64,000 nucleotides of DNA, from positions 251,344 to 315,343 of the forward strand of contig JAENYE010000002.1 in the NCBI GenBank assembly GCA_016841955.1, written 5' to 3'. The DNA comes from Methanobacteriota archaeon (lineage in GTDB: Archaea > Halobacteriota > Methanomicrobia > Methanomicrobiales > Methanoculleaceae). Positions 1,673 to 59,392 of the stretch are shown here, piece after piece. A program made the translations under genes and the position numbers. The notes under the pieces were generated by a model that searched no databases, was not told the origin of the DNA, and was given only the letters and a program-made list of their open reading frames with translations. Positions within the stretch are counted from its first letter, which is position 1; the number at the start of each line of letters is the position of its first letter.

Positions 1673-2451
1673 GCGACAGATTTCAGGTACTCGTTAAAGA
1701 CGTGATGGCAAAACCGATCACTATCGCGAAGTCCGCCTTTGTCAGCGAAGCGCTCGAAAAGATGCTCGGTGAAGGCGTCGACCCGCTCATCGTGACCAAC
1801 AACGGCACGGTCATCGGCACGACATCCCGGGCGGCGATCGCCGAGACGCTCGGGAGCAGGAAGACTCACGCGCTGAAGGCCACATCCATCCATGTCGCGA
1901 ACACGGTCGAGGAGAACTTCACCTCCGCATACCCGGACCAGAGCATCGATGTTCTGGTGCCGCTGCTCCAGCACTACAAGCTGATCGTGGTCTTCGATGC
2001 CGAGCACCGCCTCATCGGGCAGGTGACGGCAGGGGACATCCTGAAGGTGCTCCGGCCGGCGGGCGGCATCCTGGACGTCATGGAACCGGCACACACCATC
2101 CAGGGCGAGGAGCGGGCCGTCCACCTCCGCCGGAGGATGCTTGACGGCGAGATCGACCGGTTCATCGTCGAGGACGGGGACACCGTTCTCGGTATCGTCA
2201 CGGAGACCGATGTCGCAAAGGCGCTTCACGCACTCAAGGATCTCGTGGAGGGGACCCACCAGGACTACCGGCTCAGGAACCTTCTCGTGCGGGACATCAT
2301 GACCACGCCCCTGATCTCGGTGGACGCGGATACGGACGTCTCGGATGTCATCGACCTGATGCTCAAAAAGAACATCAGTTCCGTCCCGGTCAAGCGGAAC
2401 GGTAAGATCACGGGCGTCGTGACCCGGTCCTCACTCGTCCAGGCCCTGTGA
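1669..2451 (+). CDS. Four-CBS-domain protein, third of three
   Basis: Encodes 260 residues starting at an ATG that overlaps the stop of the preceding gene (ATGA). Two clear CBS units lie at the C-terminal side (about residues 130-185, GIVTETDVAK; and 202-260, GVVTRSSLVQ). Two more divergent ones are N-terminal (KDVMAKPITI at residues 9-18; GQVTAGDILKV near residue 118). As in its neighbours, nothing but CBS modules is present. It closes the predicted operon; a short T-run follows the stop. Its ligand and partner are not evident from sequence. Confidence 0.87.
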   Translation: MSDRFQVLVKDVMAKPITIAKSAFVSEALEKMLGEGVDPLIVTNNGTVIGTTSRAAIAETLGSRKTHALKATSIHVANTVEENFTSAYPDQSIDVLVPLLQHYKLIVVFDAEHRLIGQVTAGDILKVLRPAGGILDVMEPAHTIQGEERAVHLRRRMLDGEIDRFIVEDGDTVLGIVTETDVAKALHALKDLVEGTHQDYRLRNLLVRDIMTTPLISVDADTDVSDVIDLMLKKNISSVPVKRNGKITGVVTRSSLVQAL

Positions 2452-2471
2452 AGGGGACCTGACACCAACTC

Positions 2472-2476
2472 TTTTT
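2472..2476 (+). terminator. T-run after the CBS operon
   Basis: Five consecutive T about 20 bases past the stop of the last CBS gene. Archaeal RNA polymerase terminates at short T-rich stretches without needing a hairpin, so this is a plausible but weak terminator. Confidence 0.35.
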
Positions 2477-2639
2477 CGGCGGAGGCCAGCCGCGGGTTTA
2501 ATCTGAGAACTTTGACTTGCAGGGACCCACCGGGCCCTGCTGATTGGCCGGGCAGAACTCGCACCGGGAGGAGCTGAAACTCCCTTTCGGCCGCATTCCG
2601 TCGGTTTTGCAGATCACCTTTGCCTAAATGGCGCATGAG

Positions 2640-3110
2640 TGCTCAAGATGCGAGGACAAAACCCCGTACACTGGACCGTGGGGGTATCGCCATGACTGCC
2701 CCGCCCCCGGGGCGGGGAACGAATGCCGGAACGGCAGGAGTTTGAGCACCGCAGGTGCGAATGACGACTTCCCCGAAGGGGAAGGAGGCCGAGCACCGTC
2801 AGGTGCGAGTGAGGAGCGCGAAGCGCGGGTGGGGTGGGGGCAACAGTGCTCAGATTCGGATCTTGAGCACCTGGGGTGCGAGCTGGAGACAGGGGAGGGG
2901 GGCGAGCCCCCCTCGCACCTATCGGTGCTCAAGCTCGCTGCGCTCGCACTCCCCGTCAGCCCCACCTCGCACCTTCGGTGCTCGAACTCCGCTCCTGCGG
3001 AGCGTCGTTCCCCCAACGGCGATATCCCCTTGAAATCCGTGCACAGGGTGTCTCCAACCCGGACTTTCGGTGCTCAGGCTCGCTACGGGCGCACTCTGCA
3101 TCCCCACCGC
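2640..3110. repeat. Hairpin-rich repeat element between the CBS operon and dhs
   Basis: The 776-base gap 2452-3227 has no convincing gene. It holds an array of small inverted repeats. GAGCACC-x-GGTGCGA modules lie at 2744-2760, 2791-2808 and 2865-2882, the reverse orientation (TCGCACC..GGTGCTC) at 2913-2930 and 2967-2984, CTTCCCC-GAA-GGGGAAG at 2768-2784, and GCGC-GAA-GCGC at about 2816-2826. The left and right halves are inverted relative to each other. Outer parts (about 2668-2692 and 3017-3050, GTRCAC..GGGGRTATCGCC) also match imperfectly in inverted orientation, so the whole region could fold into one large structure. Open frames across it are compositional artefacts. The same modules recur near 24.0, 45.0 and 59.2 kb. 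Confidence 0.75.
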
Positions 3111-23484: not shown

Positions 23485-23604
23485 CGGCACCGGAGCCCCA
23501 GGGCATGCATCAAACCCCCGATTTCTCATTTCACCTCCCAGGATCGCGGGAAAAGGCGCTTATATGACAAACACCAAGTTATAAAGCATTATCAGGTGAA
23601 CCGG

Positions 23605-25311
23605 GTGAATAAATACTCCTTCGTCACCAGGGTGCCCGACGAACCGGGCTCGTTGCACCGCGCGGCCGAGATCATCAAGTCGCACTCCGGCAACATCAAC
23701 CGTATCCAGTTCGACCGCAGGATCGATCCCTTGACCGTCTTCTTCGAGGTGACCGCCACACCGGAGGGTTACTCCCAGATGAAGGAAGACCTCCACGCGA
23801 TCGGCTACCTCCAGGAATCGCTGCCTACGCTCGGATTTCTCAGGTTTTCGGTATACGTCCCTCACGAACCCGGATCCCTCTTCGAACTCCTCACCTACAT
23901 CACCGGGGCGGGGGCAAACATCGCCTACATCGACTTCGACGACCGGCGGTGCGGCTTGGGATGGTTCGAAGCGCGACTGGCCGAAGGGCAGGAGCGTGAG
24001 CACCGAAGGTGCGAGGAACCGGAGCAGGAGCACCAAAGAACGATGTTCCATCAGGATGCGACGGTTCGTGAGAACCGGAGCTGGAGAGACCCTTCCGGGT
24101 TTCGAGAACGGAGTTCGAGCACCGAAGGTGCGAGGTGCGACTCCGGCAGGGTCACCATCAGCCTGAACATCGAGGAGACCGCTATCGTGGAGAGCCTGCT
24201 CGACCGGTTGAAGTCACAATATCGTCTCGAGATCCTCGAGTACGACACGACCGGCGAGAAGCTCGACGACACCGTCTTTTACGTCAGGTTCGCCCAGGCG
24301 GTGCGGGGGCTGATCGGGACGGCCGAGGATGAGTTCCTGCTCTCCCTCCTGCAGGACGTCAACCACATCGTCCAGGAACTCAACAGCCTCGGCCAGGACC
24401 CGAAGGAAGTCTTCGAGTGCATCCTGCTCACGGGAAGGACGCTCCGGAACACCACGAAAGATCGGTTTTACACGGAAGTCCAGCGTATCCCCCTCAGCGA
24501 CGACGTCGAGGTCTTCTGTTTCCAGATGCCGGGCGGCGGGAACATCTTCCTGCTCCGCACCCCGGACGAGACCGTCATGATCGACACCGGATACGGGATC
24601 TACCACCAGGACGCCGTGCGGATGTTCCAGCACTACGGTCTCGGGGATCCCGGGAAGATCCGCAGGATCTACATCACCCACGCCGATGCGGATCACTGCG
24701 GGGCGGGCGGGCTCTTCGCTGCAAAAGCGTATACGCACACCGGGTCGCTCGAGATCATCCGCCGGGCGAACCGCGCCTACGGCTCGCGCAGCGAGTCCTC
24801 GATCCTCGAAGAGGTCTACACGACCGTCATCAACCTCTTCTCGCACTTCACTCCGCCGGAGAACCCCGAGATCTTCCCGGCAGAGAGGATCGGCACACGG
24901 TCGATCTTTCCCGTCATTGCACGCTTTGCGGTCCACGACCTCGAGTTCGAGGTCCTCGAGTCCCTGGGCGGGCACATGCACGGCCAGGTCTACTTCTTCT
25001 GTCCGGGGCACGGGATCATCTTCACCGCCGATACCCTGATCAACTTCGGGAGCCTCGATGAGGAGCGGAAACGCTACAACTCGCTGGCCGACTTCCTGGT
25101 GACGTCGGTCAATGTCGACAGCGACTGTGCACGCCGGGAGCGTACGGCGTTGCTTGAGCTGATCCGGAACCTGGACGATGAGCTCGCCCCGGCCGGCCGC
25201 CGGTGCCTAGTCGCATGCGGCCACGGCGCCGTCTCCGTTCTGAAAGATGGAAGACTGGAAGCGGCCGGACCGGTCGAGCACTACCGGGCCGGAGAGTCGA
25301 GAGAGAGTTAG
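23605..25311 (+). CDS. Two-ACT-domain / metallo-beta-lactamase fold protein with in-frame repeat insertion
   Basis: Encodes 568 residues. GTG at 23605 is preferred because AGGTGA (23594-23599) precedes it; a GTG at 23596 is possible. ACT domain 1 spans residues 1-70 (VPDEPGSLHRAAEII). ACT domain 2 (VPHEPGSLFELLTYI) begins near 85 and should form a beta2-beta3 hairpin after IAYIDFDDR. Instead about 66 charged residues (roughly 116-181, bases 23950-24148) intervene before RVTISLNI resumes the fold. The C-terminal half is a metallo-beta-lactamase domain with THADADHCGAGG (near 359) and GHMHGQVYFF. ACT domains suggest amino-acid control of a hydrolase; the substrate is unknown. Confidence 0.88.
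   Translation: MNKYSFVTRVPDEPGSLHRAAEIIKSHSGNINRIQFDRRIDPLTVFFEVTATPEGYSQMKEDLHAIGYLQESLPTLGFLRFSVYVPHEPGSLFELLTYITGAGANIAYIDFDDRRCGLGWFEARLAEGQEREHRRCEEPEQEHQRTMFHQDATVRENRSWRDPSGFRERSSSTEGARCDSGRVTISLNIEETAIVESLLDRLKSQYRLEILEYDTTGEKLDDTVFYVRFAQAVRGLIGTAEDEFLLSLLQDVNHIVQELNSLGQDPKEVFECILLTGRTLRNTTKDRFYTEVQRIPLSDDVEVFCFQMPGGGNIFLLRTPDETVMIDTGYGIYHQDAVRMFQHYGLGDPGKIRRIYITHADADHCGAGGLFAAKAYTHTGSLEIIRRANRAYGSRSESSILEEVYTTVINLFSHFTPPENPEIFPAERIGTRSIFPVIARFAVHDLEFEVLESLGGHMHGQVYFFCPGHGIIFTADTLINFGSLDEERKRYNSLADFLVTSVNVDSDCARRERTALLELIRNLDDELAPAGRRCLVACGHGAVSVLKDGRLEAAGPVEHYRAGESRES
23950..24148 (+). repeat. Palindromic repeat insertion inside a coding sequence
   Basis: About 200 bases inside the ACT/metallo-beta-lactamase gene are built from the same hairpin modules seen between genes elsewhere. 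GAGCACC-GAA-GGTGCGAGG occurs at 23998-24016 and again at 24117-24135, with GAAC-GAT-GTTC, GGTTC-GTGA-GAACC and ACCC-TTCC-GGGT hairpins between them. The two identical copies are 119 bases apart, so they are read in different frames (REHRRCEE versus SSSTEGARC). This points to DNA or RNA structure rather than protein sequence as the conserved feature. The reading frame stays open. Boundaries are estimated from where ACT homology breaks off and resumes. Confidence 0.8.
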
Positions 25312-43387: not shown

Positions 43388-44190
43388 CGACACCATCGTT
43401 CTCTGTTTACGGCCTTGCGACCCCTCTGATCCGGGCCGGCGACGACGTCGCGGCGCACCTTCTTTCGGCCGCCGAACGCTCGGAGTGCCGGGGCTTCAGG
43501 GACGGGGATATCGTGGTCGTTGCGGAGTCGGCCGTGGCCACCGCCGAAGGGCGGGTCGTGAGACTGGCCGATATCGAGCCGTCGGCAAAAGCCCTCCGGG
43601 TCGCCGAAGAATACCATATGGACCCTCGACACGTCGAGGTGGTGCTCCGGGAGAGCGACCGGGTCGTCGGGGGCATCCCGGGGTTCCTGCTCTGCATGAA
43701 GAACGGGACGCTCCTTCCGAACGCGGGGATCGACGCCTCCAACGCCCCTCCCGGCTCCGTCGTCCTCCTCCCCCTCGACCCGGACGCATCCGCGGCGCGT
43801 ATCCGCGCCGCAATCGCGGAGCGAACCGGGGCCGACGTCGGCGTCATCGTCGTCGATTCCCGGACGCACGCGATGCGCCTCGGGTGCAGCGGGGTCGCCA
43901 TCGGGTGTTCGGGCATCCCCTCGGTGGTCGACGAGCGCGGGAAAAAAGATCTCTTCGGCCGCGAACTCGAGGTCACGAAGCGGGCGGTGGCGGACTGCAT
44001 CGCATCGGCCGCCGAACTGGTGATGGGAGAGACAAACGAGTGCGTCCCCGCAGCCGTAGTGCGGGGGATCGGACTTCCCGTCGGCGACTACGCCGGGGTC
44101 GCCACCATCGACGCTTCAGAGTGTCTCTTCATGGGGGTCGCGCTGCACGCCGACCCGTCCCTTCTCGTCGATGACGAGAGAGAACCCTGA
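43384..44190 (+). CDS. cofE: Coenzyme F420-0:L-glutamate ligase
   Basis: Encodes 268 residues, usual for archaeal CofE. The enzyme adds L-glutamates to F420-0 using GTP to make F420-2. Family features are the beginning YGLATPLIRAGDDVA, RDGDIVVVAESAVATAEGR (near 38-56), LLCMKNGTLLPNAGIDASN (near 101-119) and IVVDSRTHAMRLGCSGVAIG (near 156-175). It overlaps the preceding gene by 4 bases. Its last 75 bases overlap, tail to tail, the end of cofC on the opposite strand. Confidence 0.94.
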   Translation: MTTPSFSVYGLATPLIRAGDDVAAHLLSAAERSECRGFRDGDIVVVAESAVATAEGRVVRLADIEPSAKALRVAEEYHMDPRHVEVVLRESDRVVGGIPGFLLCMKNGTLLPNAGIDASNAPPGSVVLLPLDPDASAARIRAAIAERTGADVGVIVVDSRTHAMRLGCSGVAIGCSGIPSVVDERGKKDLFGRELEVTKRAVADCIASAAELVMGETNECVPAAVVRGIGLPVGDYAGVATIDASECLFMGVALHADPSLLVDDEREP

Positions 44191-44763
44191 ACTCTCCAGG
44201 AACTCCCTGCTCTTTCTTCCTTTTCCGTGAATGAGGATCTCGACCAGGTCTTCCTTCTCGTCGACATCGGTCGACATCCGAAACGAGTCGATCACCTCGA
44301 CGGAGAAGCCGCACTCCCCTGCGACCCGCAGGTGGTCGAGGAAACTTGCGCCGTAGAAGTCGGCACGGAAGCACTGCGGCTTTTTTAAGAATATGACGTT
44401 CGTCCCGCCGCCGCGGCCCGGCACGATGGCCATATCCTTCTCGGTGCGGATCAGCCGCTGGATATCCCCGGCCGTCACCAGGGGGAGGTCGGCCATGATG
44501 ATGAGCGCCGGGCAGTGGAACTGCCCGAGCGCCCAGTTGATCGCTTCGTTCAACGACTCCTTCCTGACGGCGATGAGTGCGTTCTCGTGTTTGAAGGGGT
44601 GGGTGCAGAGGAGGGTGGCGCTGCACCCGGACTTCTGCACGGAAGCGATCACGTCTTCAAGCATAGCCCGGGCGAACGCCTCCCGCTCTTCCTGGTTGAG
44701 GATACAGGAGAGGCGTGTCTTGGGGTTCGTAGGCTTAAAGGGAATGAGCGCGTGAAAGTACAT
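44116..44763 (-). CDS. cofC: 2-phospho-L-lactate guanylyltransferase
   Basis: Encodes 215 residues of the nucleotidyltransferase fold. CofC activates 2-phospholactate (or a related three-carbon acid) with GTP for F420 side-chain assembly. The N terminus FHALIPFKPTNPKTRLSCIL is the family signature, with LIIMADLPLVTAGDIQRLI (near 89-107) holding the metal-binding aspartate and PGRGGGTNVIFLKKP (near 120) following. Convergent with cofE, sharing 75 bases at their 3' ends; both enzymes act in the same pathway. Confidence 0.94.
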   Translation of the reverse strand: MYFHALIPFKPTNPKTRLSCILNQEEREAFARAMLEDVIASVQKSGCSATLLCTHPFKHENALIAVRKESLNEAINWALGQFHCPALIIMADLPLVTAGDIQRLIRTEKDMAIVPGRGGGTNVIFLKKPQCFRADFYGASFLDHLRVAGECGFSVEVIDSFRMSTDVDEKEDLVEILIHGKGRKSREFLESSGFSLVIDEKGRVGVQRDPHEETL

Positions 44764-44940
44764 CGTGAAACGGTTGTCGGGGCAGCATCAAAAATGCATC
44801 GTTTCCAGTGCGGCGGGGATAGGCCGGCCCGGGTTAAATAGAAAGCCGCTCATCGGGTCATATTGCCTCCCCCCATTGGCACCCGGGTATTCATCGGGGA
44901 GGTTGCAGAGCACTTCCGGAGAGCCATCTATACACCGGCA

Positions 44941-45214
44941 ACTCACGCGAAGGCGCGAAGGCCGCGAAGTGCGACGGATGGAACATCCGGAGCTTGAGAA
45001 GACCGAAGGTCTTCGGAGAACGACGGGCCGAAGGGAGCGACGGACGGTGTCCGGAGCTTGAGAAGACCAGAGGTCTTCGAGTCCGGAGTTCGAGCACCGT
45101 CAGGTGCGAAGTGCGACTTCCCCGCAGGGGAAGGAGCATGAGCACCGAAGGTGCGAAGGGACGTTGCTAATACCCATCTACCGGTCTTCGCGCTCTTCGC
45201 GTCTTCGCGTGTGA
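44941..45214. repeat. Repeat element with terminal inverted arms and five or more internal hairpins
   Basis: The 609-base gap between cofC and cofG (44764-45372) contains no gene. The left arm ACTCACGCGAAGGCGCGAAG (from 44941) is matched in inverted orientation by CTTCGCGTCTTCGCGTGTGA (to about 45214). Inside are GGATG-GAA-CATCC (about 44976-44988), GAAGACC-GAA-GGTCTTC (44998-45014), GAAGACC-AGA-GGTCTTC (45062-45078), GCACC-GTCA-GGTGC (within 45092-45107), CTTCCCC-GCA-GGGGAAG (45117-45133) and GCACC-GAA-GGTGC (within 45140-45156). No transposase frame is inside, so a non-autonomous mobile or structural element is possible. Confidence 0.78.
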
Positions 45215-45372
45215 CTGCATTGCTCCCCTAACACCATTGCCTCATCACTACTCCGGCAGAGTCCATGCCACCAGCCTCCGCCAAAAACCGGTAAGTTTCC
45301 GGGGCTGCATGAAGCATCTCCAGAGAGAGCCCGGTCCCGAAGGTTCATGTGGGGAGGTGCCGAAATATACCC

Positions 45373-46368
45373 ATGCACCGCCGCGTGATCACCTTTTCAA
45401 GGAACGCATTCCTCCCCCTGACAACGGTCTGCATAAATCGTTGCGGCTACTGCTGTTTCCGCACATCGGTGCGGGAGGGGTGCATCATGCCTCCCGGCGA
45501 AGCGATCCGGACCCTGGAAGCGGGTGCCGACCTTGGCTGCACGGAGGCGCTCTTCACCTTCGGGGAACGGCCGGGCGCGGTGCCCGGGTTCACTGAAATG
45601 CTCGGGCGGATCGGCTACGCGGATATCCTCGACTACGTCTACGACCTCTCTCTTGCCGCCATAAGAAGGGGGCTCCTGCCGCACACCAACGCCGGCATCC
45701 TCACCTACGAGGAACTCGACCGGCTCCGCGAGGTGAACGCGAGCATGGGGCTGATGCTCGAGACGACCGCGGACGTCGCCGCACACCGGGACTCTCCGGG
45801 AAAAGATCCGGCGGTCCGGATCGAGATGATCGAGAACGCCGGGAAACTCTCGATCCCGTTCACGACCGGCATCCTGGTCGGGATCGGCGAGACGATGGAT
45901 GACCGCGAGGAGTCGCTCCGGGTCATCCGGGACCTCCATTCGCGATTCGGCCACATCCAGGAGGTGATCGTGCAGAACTTCTGTCCGAAGCCGGGGACAC
46001 CGATGGAAGACTTCCTGGTGCCCGATACCGAAGAACTGTGTGCGACGATAACCCTCGCCCGGGAGGTCCTCCCGGCGGATGTGGCGGTGCAGATACCCCC
46101 GAACCTCGTGGACGCAAGCTACCTGGTCGGGTGCGGCGTGGACGACCTCGGCGGGGTCTCCCCGCTCACCATCGACTACGTCAACCCGGAGCATCCCTGG
46201 CCGCAGATCGAGGAACTCAAGAGGGTGGCCGGGGATGCCGACCTCTCCGAACGGCTCTGCATCTACCCGCAGTACATCGAGAAGGGCTGGTATTCCCCCC
46301 TGCTCGAGCCCCTGGTCCGGCAGCTCGCGGAGAGGATTGCGGCCCCGGCCCGGGGTCGCGGTGCATAA
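45373..46368 (+). CDS. cofG: 7,8-didemethyl-8-hydroxy-5-deazariboflavin synthase, CofG subunit
   Basis: Encodes 331 residues of the radical-SAM family. The cluster motif CINRCGYC lies near residues 21-28, right after the family beginning VITFSRNAFLPLT. Downstream GILVGIGETMDDREESL (near 164) and VIVQNFCPKPGTPM are typical of CofG. With CofH it builds the F420 deazaflavin (Fo) core from tyrosine and a pyrimidine precursor. The ATG at 45373 is preferred; a GTG at 45349 is possible. The purC gene starts 42 bases after its stop. Confidence 0.93.
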   Translation: MHRRVITFSRNAFLPLTTVCINRCGYCCFRTSVREGCIMPPGEAIRTLEAGADLGCTEALFTFGERPGAVPGFTEMLGRIGYADILDYVYDLSLAAIRRGLLPHTNAGILTYEELDRLREVNASMGLMLETTADVAAHRDSPGKDPAVRIEMIENAGKLSIPFTTGILVGIGETMDDREESLRVIRDLHSRFGHIQEVIVQNFCPKPGTPMEDFLVPDTEELCATITLAREVLPADVAVQIPPNLVDASYLVGCGVDDLGGVSPLTIDYVNPEHPWPQIEELKRVAGDADLSERLCIYPQYIEKGWYSPLLEPLVRQLAERIAAPARGRGA

Positions 46369-47133: not shown

Positions 47134-47376
47134 ATGAAATATGACGTAACCATCACCATTGGACTCAAAGAAGGAATGCTGAACCCTGAAGCGCGTGCCA
47201 TCCAGCACGCCCTCGCGAACCTGGGGTTCCCGACCGAGGACCTGAGCACGGCGCGGCTCTACCGGATCACGCTCGACGCAGCGGATGCAGCGGCAGCCCG
47301 GGCAGAGGCAGGACAGATGTGCGAGCGGCTCCTCGCAAACCCGGTCATCCACCACTACACGATTGAGGTCGAGTGA
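47134..47376 (+). CDS. purS: Phosphoribosylformylglycinamidine synthase subunit PurS
   Basis: Encodes 80 residues, the normal size of PurS, the small dimeric subunit that bridges PurQ and PurL. The pattern YDVTITIGLKEGMLNPEARA followed by IQHALANLGF is the family signature. It lies between purC and purQ with gaps of 6 and 3 bases. The large synthetase subunit purL is not in this window. Confidence 0.95.
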   Translation: MKYDVTITIGLKEGMLNPEARAIQHALANLGFPTEDLSTARLYRITLDAADAAAARAEAGQMCERLLANPVIHHYTIEVE

Positions 47377-47379
47377 GGC

Positions 47380-48096
47380 ATGAGATTTGCTGTGGTACAG
47401 TTCGGCGGCAGCAACTGTGACCGGGACACCCACCACGTCCTCTCGGACGTCTGCGGGGTCGAGACGGATCTCGTCTGGTACAAGGACGGGCTCCTCCGCT
47501 CCTACGATGCCGTGGTGCTCCCGGGCGGGTTCTCCTACGGCGACTACCTCCGGGCAGGGGCCATCGCCGCCCGGACCCCGATCATGGCCGAACTCATCAG
47601 GCACGCGAAGAGCGGGGGACTTGTCCTCGGGATCTGCAACGGCGCGCAGATCGGCTCGGAGGCCGGGCTGGTCCCGGGCACCTTCACGCTGAACGCCTAC
47701 CCGAAGTTCATCTCGCGGCACGTCCACCTCCGCGTCGAGAACACCACGTCCCCGTTCACCGCGCTCTACCGGGAGGGGGAGGTGATCCGGGTGCCGATCG
47801 CTCATGCGGAGGGGCGCTACGTCGCCCCCGACGAGGTGCTCGCACGGCTGAACCGCGAAGGAAGGGTCGCGTTCCGGTTCTGCGACGAGCACGGCAACAC
47901 GACCCCGGAGAGCAACCCGAACGGATCTGCGGAGAACATCACCGGCGTCCTCTCGGAGGCCGGAAACGTGCTCGCGATGATGCCGCATCCCGAGCGGGCG
48001 AGTGAGCCTGTGCTCGGATCGGAGGACGGGGTCAAAATCTTTAACTCGATGATAGCCTATATCGAAGAGCACGGGCGTCGGAGACCCACGCAATAG
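47380..48096 (+). CDS. purQ: Phosphoribosylformylglycinamidine synthase subunit PurQ
   Basis: Encodes 238 residues, a class I glutamine amidotransferase that supplies ammonia to PurL. The nucleophile cysteine is in LVLGICNGAQIGSEAGL (residue near 87), and the partner histidine and glutamate are in MPHPERASEP (near 207). FGGSNCDRDTHH at the N terminus is typical of PurQ. Last purine gene of the cluster; 10 bases before the FTR-like gene. Confidence 0.95.
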   Translation: MRFAVVQFGGSNCDRDTHHVLSDVCGVETDLVWYKDGLLRSYDAVVLPGGFSYGDYLRAGAIAARTPIMAELIRHAKSGGLVLGICNGAQIGSEAGLVPGTFTLNAYPKFISRHVHLRVENTTSPFTALYREGEVIRVPIAHAEGRYVAPDEVLARLNREGRVAFRFCDEHGNTTPESNPNGSAENITGVLSEAGNVLAMMPHPERASEPVLGSEDGVKIFNSMIAYIEEHGRRRPTQ

Positions 48097-59089: not shown

Positions 59090-59392
59090 TCATCCTCCGC
59101 CGAGCACCTTCACCAGCACCCCGCCCACGACCCCACCGGCCCCGGCGCTGATCGTCGAAACTCTTCGTTCCTCCCCGGCCTTCTCCGCGCGCCAGCCCTC
59201 CAGCGCCCGGATCCGGGTCTCAAAATCCTCGCTCGAAGACCTTCGGTCTTCTCCCGCTCCCGCCCTGCGGCCGGTCGCGTCCCACTCCTCCATCTGCCGG
59301 AGCGCCCGGCAGATCCATTTTACGTCCCGGTTCGTCTCGTAGACGAGCTCCCGGTTATCGCGCATCATCACGCATTTATCGCGCATCAGCAC
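59090..59392 (-). CDS. Small hypothetical protein with an in-frame hairpin insertion
   Basis: Encodes 100 residues. The N-terminal half is charged and helical (MMRDNRELVYETNRDVKWI, CRALRQMEEWDA). IRALEGWRAEKAGEERRV (about 61-78) follows, then a small-residue hydrophobic C terminus (AGAGGVVGGVLVKVLGGG) that may enter a membrane. The layout resembles small proteins of archaeal and bacterial viruses or elements, but no family is named. Residues 41-56 (TGRRAGAGEDRRSSSE) coincide with the palindrome GAAGACC-TTC-GGTCTTC (59235-59251), which looks like an insertion between two natural halves. An ATG at 59386 region offers alternative starts. Confidence 0.55.
   Translation of the reverse strand: MLMRDKCVMMRDNRELVYETNRDVKWICRALRQMEEWDATGRRAGAGEDRRSSSEDFETRIRALEGWRAEKAGEERRVSTISAGAGGVVGGVLVKVLGGG
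59235..59251. repeat. GAAGACC hairpin inside the small hypothetical gene
   Basis: A perfect 7-bp stem GAAGACC/GGTCTTC with a 3-base loop (TTC here, GAA on the coding strand). It is the same module as at 44998-45014 in the intergenic element near 45 kb. Confidence 0.7.

Follow-up and report, generated by a model that had tools for sequence, protein, structure and literature searches.

A composite of two independent Methanoculleus repeat families in the shared upstream region of cofC and cofG

The window analyzed here, a stretch of 64,000 nucleotides, corresponds to positions 251344-315343 of contig C8 in a 2.43-Mb genome (G000), probably of a Methanoculleus. It harbors the divergently placed genes cofC and cofG, whose shared upstream region is occupied by a composite of two independent Methanoculleus repeat families, here called A and B (44943-45214). 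A gap of 179 bp separates the composite from the start of cofC and one of 167 bp from that of cofG, the neighbor already named in the original prediction and one whose name passes the NCBIfam cut-off. The features of the locus are as follows.

44116-44763, minus strand: cofC (2-phospho-L-lactate guanylyltransferase; TIGR03552, 172.5 bits, NCBIfam cut-off 105)
44943-44969, plus strand: family A left arm of CGCGAAG heptads, an inverted repeat with the right arm; the palindrome is restored on excision of the array
44970-45158, plus strand: family B hairpin array of 189 bp between GCGAAG copies at 44964-44969 and 45153-45158; its excision restores an 83-nt palindrome
44975-44989, plus strand: B hairpin of type II (CGGATG/CATCCG)
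44998-45014, plus strand: B hairpin of type I (GAAGACC/GGTCTTC)
45024-45035, plus strand: imperfect B hairpin remnant of type II (CGGGCC gaa GGG)
45041-45053, plus strand: B hairpin of type II (CGGAC/GTCCG)
45062-45078, plus strand: B hairpin of type I (GAAGACC/GGTCTTC)
45094-45107, plus strand: B hairpin of type I (GCACC/GGTGC)
45117-45133, plus strand: B hairpin of type II (CTTCCCC/GGGGAAG)
45142-45154, plus strand: B hairpin of type I (GCACC/GGTGC)
45159-45185, plus strand: family A centre, 27 nt
45186-45214, plus strand: family A right arm
45382-46368, plus strand: cofG (FO synthase subunit; TIGR03550, 427.9 bits, NCBIfam cut-off 213)

The inverted arms (44944-44981 and 45174-45211) are 38 nt each, 79% complementary and separated by 192 nt. 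The ends are complementary at 30 of 38 positions, a figure that no 268-bp segment among 20,000 drawn at random from the window attains; the highest is 25, with those lying within 300 bp of the element left out of account. Both strands of the region fold at a z score of about −8.2 relative to 200 dinucleotide shuffles, and between the arms, where at least six hairpins had been predicted, there are eight (seven perfect, one imperfect). As predicted, no transposase is encoded inside. The observation made in the original prediction is therefore confirmed; its interpretation is partly supported. The outer ends are indeed defined, but the palindrome proper consists of 44943-44969 plus 45159-45214 and the rest is insert. 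Excising 44970-45158 leaves a near-perfect 83-nt A palindrome with a folding energy of −46.1 kcal/mol, and the excised array carries three matches to the R1 model (45111-45156, 54.5 bits; 45035-45109, 51.0 bits; 44969-45006, 35.2 bits). Another such arrangement occurs at locus L318 of another genus member (G002), where a B module sits between the heptads of one A arm and its removal at GCGAAG restores the arm (by eye).

Family A is an 83-bp palindrome, each arm made of two or three CGCGAAG heptads, with a 27-bp centre and unit ends CTCACGCGAAG and CTTCGCGTGAG. It is found alone and in back-to-back pairs, whose spacer in C8 is exactly 26 nt in seven of nine cases and 24 and 25 nt in the others. 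Face-to-face A arms in C8 are 54 to 261 nt apart, and by eye three of the eight such pairs enclose B hairpins (starts 244663, 296285 and 321969), the one at 296285 being the composite. The A-arm pattern has 100 matches in G000, and a reversed control pattern has none in all 35 genus genomes. Beyond the genus A is rare: 16 of the 392 genomes in a phylum sample match, own genus included, with one other genus represented by G037 (10 matches) and G042 (12) and two further genomes holding one match each. In G001 several A arms follow one another at intervals of about 106 or 175 bp.

Family B is a module of about 45 bp with two alternating hairpins and no CGCGAAG-heptad arms. Of the 35 genus genomes, 28 contain the A-arm pattern and 33 match the B model, with A/B counts of 100/153 in G000, 345/29 in G001, 182/162 in G002, 5/159 in G010, 109/172 in G012, 1/147 in G025, 2/133 in G029 and 0/59 in G034; with 150 candidates scored per genome, high B counts are lower bounds (at least 153 in G000). 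The copy numbers of A and B are thus unlinked across the 35 genomes, so that the families are independent and the composite is not a single unit. Each family is found in places that lack the other, contrary to the proposal that the composite represents a full-length unit from which the sites at 24.0 and 59.2 kb were partial derivatives. Both of these sites hold B only, as the list of B sites elsewhere in the window records.

2717-3010, both strands: four B modules within another GC-rich repeat
23954-24133, plus strand (C8 275297-275476): B array alone, 180 bp or 60 codons in frame, in the gene at 23596-25311; delimited by empty-site comparison
59233-59280, minus strand: single B module (33.6 bits) without A arms

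Within G000, BLAST finds 114 matches to the composite, nearly all of them to pieces of it, and at 20 inspected match sites A and B are seen as separate things. Of 196 B modules standing first in an array, 28 directly follow CGCGAAG, a recurrence of the nesting seen in the composite; the remainder are mostly in other contexts, many within a further GC-rich repeat. Beyond the genus the main holder of B is G119, a member of the same family with 39 matches. B matches occur in 43 of 150 genomes of an order sample, own genus included, most outsiders having one to eight under stricter filters. An exact 17-mer scan of genome contigs returned at least 111 stretches. Among the 17-mer matches listed, the best B score at 34 loci with non-Methanoculleus titles is 27.8 bits. 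Good modules score 50-70 bits, and these 34 loci thus showed no B, even though all their scores are inflated, the loci having been chosen by a 17-mer that belongs to B.

These data bear on the reading of the composite as a single 270-bp MITE-like element with terminal inverted repeats, moved by a DDE transposase, with the other sites as decayed copies. Its discrete inverted ends, the many A units with identical ends (CTCACGCGAAG/CTTCGCGTGAG) and presence or absence at the species level are in keeping with such an element, but A and B are independent in both copy number and location, and the best BLAST match elsewhere in G000 spans only 169 of 285 bases. Furthermore, target duplication, which the original prediction proposed to look for at the edges, is absent from the 22 distinct A units with terminal inverted repeats CTCACGCGAAG / CTTCGCGTG[AC]G (these ends being also the search terms): 19 show none and three show 2 nt, compared with 18.5 and 3.5 for shuffled flanks. 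Boundaries that differ between copies, named beforehand as evidence against a mobile unit, are seen when the composite is taken as the unit and not when A is. We consider the MITE-like reading largely refuted for the whole composite, and very unlikely overall. In the available text of PMC10969869, MITEs are short, non-coding and bounded by inverted ends, and family A resembles them in all three respects; unlike MITEs so described, the 22 units lack target duplications and searches with PF01797 and PF00078 identify no parental transposon. A is thus not a MITE with target duplication.

The anatomy of B was derived from 28 aligned modules, which on one strand read y-GA-[stem II, 6 bp]-GA-x-GA-[stem I]-GA. 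The linkers x and y are 4 nt each and able to pair, so that stem II continues into a tandem GA/GA step, which may form sheared pairs, and then into a short outer stem. The GA flanks, a CGA before and a GAG after stem II, and stem I are invariant in the alignment, and GA flanks both sides of 136 of 173 GCACC hairpins that were found without a GA condition. Stem II is mostly CGTTCC, CGGGCC, CTGGCC, CGCTCC, CTTCCCC, CGGACG or CTGCCG, and stem I mostly GCACC, then GAAGACC, GAAGCC and GAAAACGC. At module junctions the sequence reads GGTGC-GA-AGTGC-GA, which places a GCGAAG within B itself. Near-identical steps of 45-47 bp in B arrays of several genomes are a sign of tandem growth.

The stems of B covary, including the outer stem across the GA/GA flanks. 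In the extended stem II, seven of ten base pairs vary in both partners. Pairing is found in 95.2% of 420 stem cells, where shuffles give 81.7% and slid registers 28-46%; these counts carry a selection for near-paired stems and GA flanks made in picking the seed modules. The fair test is therefore the outer x/y stem, which was not used in choosing: it is paired in 86.3% of cases versus 74.2% in shuffles over 202 modules, and in 83.7% versus 71.1% over 46 representatives less than 85% alike, with none of 5,000 shuffles reaching the observed value in either set. G.T pairs outnumber A.C pairs in all three helices (126 to 23 in x/y), an excess that would point to a single strand as the one that folds. 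With base composition controlled, the observed/expected ratios are 0.79 for G.T and 0.37 for A.C over all modules, and 0.91 and 0.56 over the representatives; much of the asymmetry is thus base composition, and the remaining effect is modest.

Comparison of C8 with contig C2 of G010 reveals clean one-sided gaps, among them two pure B arrays (C8 275297-275476 and C8 206601-206809). The first is the in-frame array of the window, inserted between the ACT-like and metallo-beta-lactamase parts of the gene at 23596-25311, whose protein is conserved. This site is empty in all three relatives covered (G010, G012 and G029), and in G000 GGTGCG stands at both edges of 23954-24133; the site at 206601-206809 shows no clear shared motif. 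The second gene with B encodes a HerA-like ATPase (PF01935; loci L330-L339), in which some species carry B hairpins in frame within an acidic linker. Five of the ten species read have them (G015, G031, G019, G025 and G010), with differing contents and hairpin numbers, and five do not (G000, G009, G012, G026 and G029). The coding strand of B here is opposite to that in the ACT gene. These two genes are the ones accepted from 161 arrays checked for open frames; 16 other array/ORF rows were dropped by eye as chance-like GC-rich frames or truncated ORFs.

As to how such repeats might spread, one candidate mechanism is that of REP/BIME-like elements moved as single strands by an HUH Y1 transposase (RAYT or IS200-IS605). 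Small palindromes occurring as singles, inverted pairs and clusters, A units without target duplications, the alternation of hairpins in B and a strand-specific wobble (G.T over A.C in three helices) all agree with it. The wobble excess, however, shrinks once base composition is controlled, and the Y1 domain (PF01797) gives no match in 28 of the 35 genus genomes, among them G000 and the B-rich G002, G003, G007, G010 and G012. PF01797 matches occur in G011, G018, G020, G023, G030, G032 (below cut-off) and G033, five of these seven being B-poor (0-8 matches). The 28 aligned modules contain no GTAG end tag and so lack the conserved tetranucleotide tag of REP-RAYT and REPIN elements. By the features tested, Y1 transposase and GTAG tag, B is not a REP-RAYT element, and mobilization by Y1 is unlikely, although an HUH enzyme from a different family, or one that these genomes no longer carry, may have acted.

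Two further observations concern the enzymes. The B-poor genomes G033 (19 Y1 matches), G011, G030, G020 and G023 carry Y1, and B and Y1 seem exclusive except in G018. A reverse transcriptase domain lies at positions 10365-10934 of contig C9 in G000, within an open frame of 583 codons. Spread by reverse transcription was rejected, as PF00078 is found in just three of the 35 genus genomes, G000 included.

Orientation relative to genes was surveyed for 33 arrays in two syntenic regions, with genes called as ORFs conserved between the two genomes. Eleven arrays lie in convergent and eight in divergent gaps, four are sense and four antisense in co-directional gaps, five were called inside ORFs and one was unclassified. 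Co-directional gaps make up 274 of the 451 gaps in these regions, as against the eight arrays they hold. One of the five inside ORFs is that in the ACT gene, and the arrays at C8 118728 and 405035 precede the ORF part that aligns to G010. Mixed orientation and a preference for places between genes outside operons fit insertion that is tolerated where least harmful.

The cofC-cofG region itself was compared between species, with one genome per species in the sample; 30 cofG loci were read, of which 27 also contain cofC. The intergenic lengths lie between 116 and 624 bp, except that G025 has 60 bp with N. Six of the 27 intergenic regions hold A and eight hold B, G000 being in both sets, and 10 are no longer than 205 bp and hold neither. 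By eye the gene-side blocks are alike in all species seen and the intergenic middle differs, which makes the middle a permissive place whose filling differs between lineages. In G002, the closest flank match at cofG, the flanks of the composite are present and the composite is absent; the sequence downstream is too diverged for a precise A-only empty site. Among the viral contigs searched, no cofG relative was confirmed. The suggestion of a discrete unit able to move or be copied is thus borne out as regards the many related copies and a locus filled or empty by species, but not as regards a single unit.

The same data address a functional role for the composite as a leader, terminator or riboswitch of cofG or cofC. 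Strong, covarying hairpins in sense orientation upstream of cofG are what such an RNA might look like, yet Rfam gives no match at E values up to 1 for 44800-45350, the composite is absent or different at this locus in most species, array orientation is mixed and opposite B strands are read in the two genes. We regard this as highly improbable, and a cofG leader RNA in particular was discarded on the unconserved locus and the mixed orientation.

We favor instead, with a probability of about 0.7, a nested pair of non-autonomous palindromic repeats, with B inside A, in which B enters at pieces of its own linker and grows in tandem. On this model, an A palindrome would first have become established in the middle, variable part of the cofC-cofG upstream region, and a B array would then have entered its left arm at a GCGAAG. 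B most likely enters where a linker piece already exists, GCGAAG in the A arms and GGTGCG in the ACT gene, perhaps by template switching or recombination at the short match, and would subsequently expand by tandem duplication of modules. GCGAAG belongs to both families, and hence a 6-bp target duplication is indistinguishable here from the use of shared sequence. At the cofC-cofG locus B is most likely tolerated without benefit to the host. It is quite unlikely that both families arose without mobility and spread only locally, chance palindromes being multiplied by slippage and by repair templated on hairpins. Tandem arrays with near-identical steps and the failure of the PF01797 and PF00078 searches to find a mobilizing enzyme would suit that explanation, but one set of discrete stem types and linkers turns up at more than 150 dispersed places in many genomes and clean empty sites exist, from which it follows that dispersal has happened. 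More tentatively, B could be an archaeal mobile hairpin module of an undescribed kind, with alternating GA/GA-flanked stems and a covarying outer stem. It would keep to one strand, spread by way of a single-stranded intermediate with the help of an enzyme that is neither Y1 HUH nor, in most hosts, a reverse transcriptase, and enter at pieces of its own linker, including those in other repeats and, in frame, in genes.

By behavior, B stands near two known groups of palindromic repeats. REP/BIME and GTAG- or CGTC-tagged repeats are described, in the portions of the sources available, as small bacterial palindromes present in hundreds of copies (PMC3733652, PMC2817692, PMC3116915), and the CGTC families as having no transposase-gene association and some intragenic units (PMC3733652); the accessible text of the latter does not contain the string ‘Methano’. 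As far as these descriptions go, the repeats studied here share with REP/BIME the hundreds of small palindromes arranged as singles, inverted dimers and clusters. They differ from GTAG/CGTC repeats in that the constants of B are its GA flanks and x/y outer stem, with no GTAG or CGTC tag as a defining part, and from REP/BIME in that two stem types alternate in B and most hosts are without Y1 transposase. Rickettsia palindromic elements (RPE) are about 150 bp long, frequent in genes and in frame in unrelated proteins, according to the available part of PMC10969869. Like RPE so described, B lies in frame in unrelated protein genes, the frame is left open and homologues without insertion exist; unlike RPE, B was found in two genes only and is mostly intergenic, as a module of about 45 bp in variable number. 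The likeness is one of behavior. In this sense B provides an archaeal parallel to the in-frame Rickettsia elements, with a HerA-like linker filled or empty by species.

In the excerpts retrieved from the open-licence literature there is no description of families A or B in Methanoculleus, and those for the bare CGCGAAG heptad hold primer-like matches only. The accessible part of ‘Satellites in the prokaryote world’ (PMC6749651) lists 45-nt and 51-nt satellite families for Methanoculleus marisnigri, treated as tandem repeats. The genus is the same, and 45 is the tandem step of B and 51 the length of longer-stem B modules; in contrast to satellites as treated there, B consists of dispersed hairpin modules. 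As a guess, the two may be identical. Methanoculleus harbors two or more palindrome families that are independent and strongly amplified, with none to hundreds of copies per species. What looks like one element, tidy inverted ends included, can prove to be a pair of unrelated repeats nested one within the other. Copy numbers that swing between species with no obvious mobilizing enzyme make the spread of such repeats testable in this genus.

Two minor observations concern the remainder of the window. A 666-bp stretch at 47253-47918 (C8 298596-299261) is missing in G010; it covers the end of the ORF at 47134-47376 and the start of that at 47380-48096, the latter glutamine-amidotransferase-like by eye. 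A third GC-rich repeat, at 2440-3110, contains pieces such as TATCGCCATNGGGG, GGGGCTGACGGGGAGGGGGG and CCCGCCCCNNGGGGCGGGG; it also flanks many B modules and recurs across the genus, often holding B modules.
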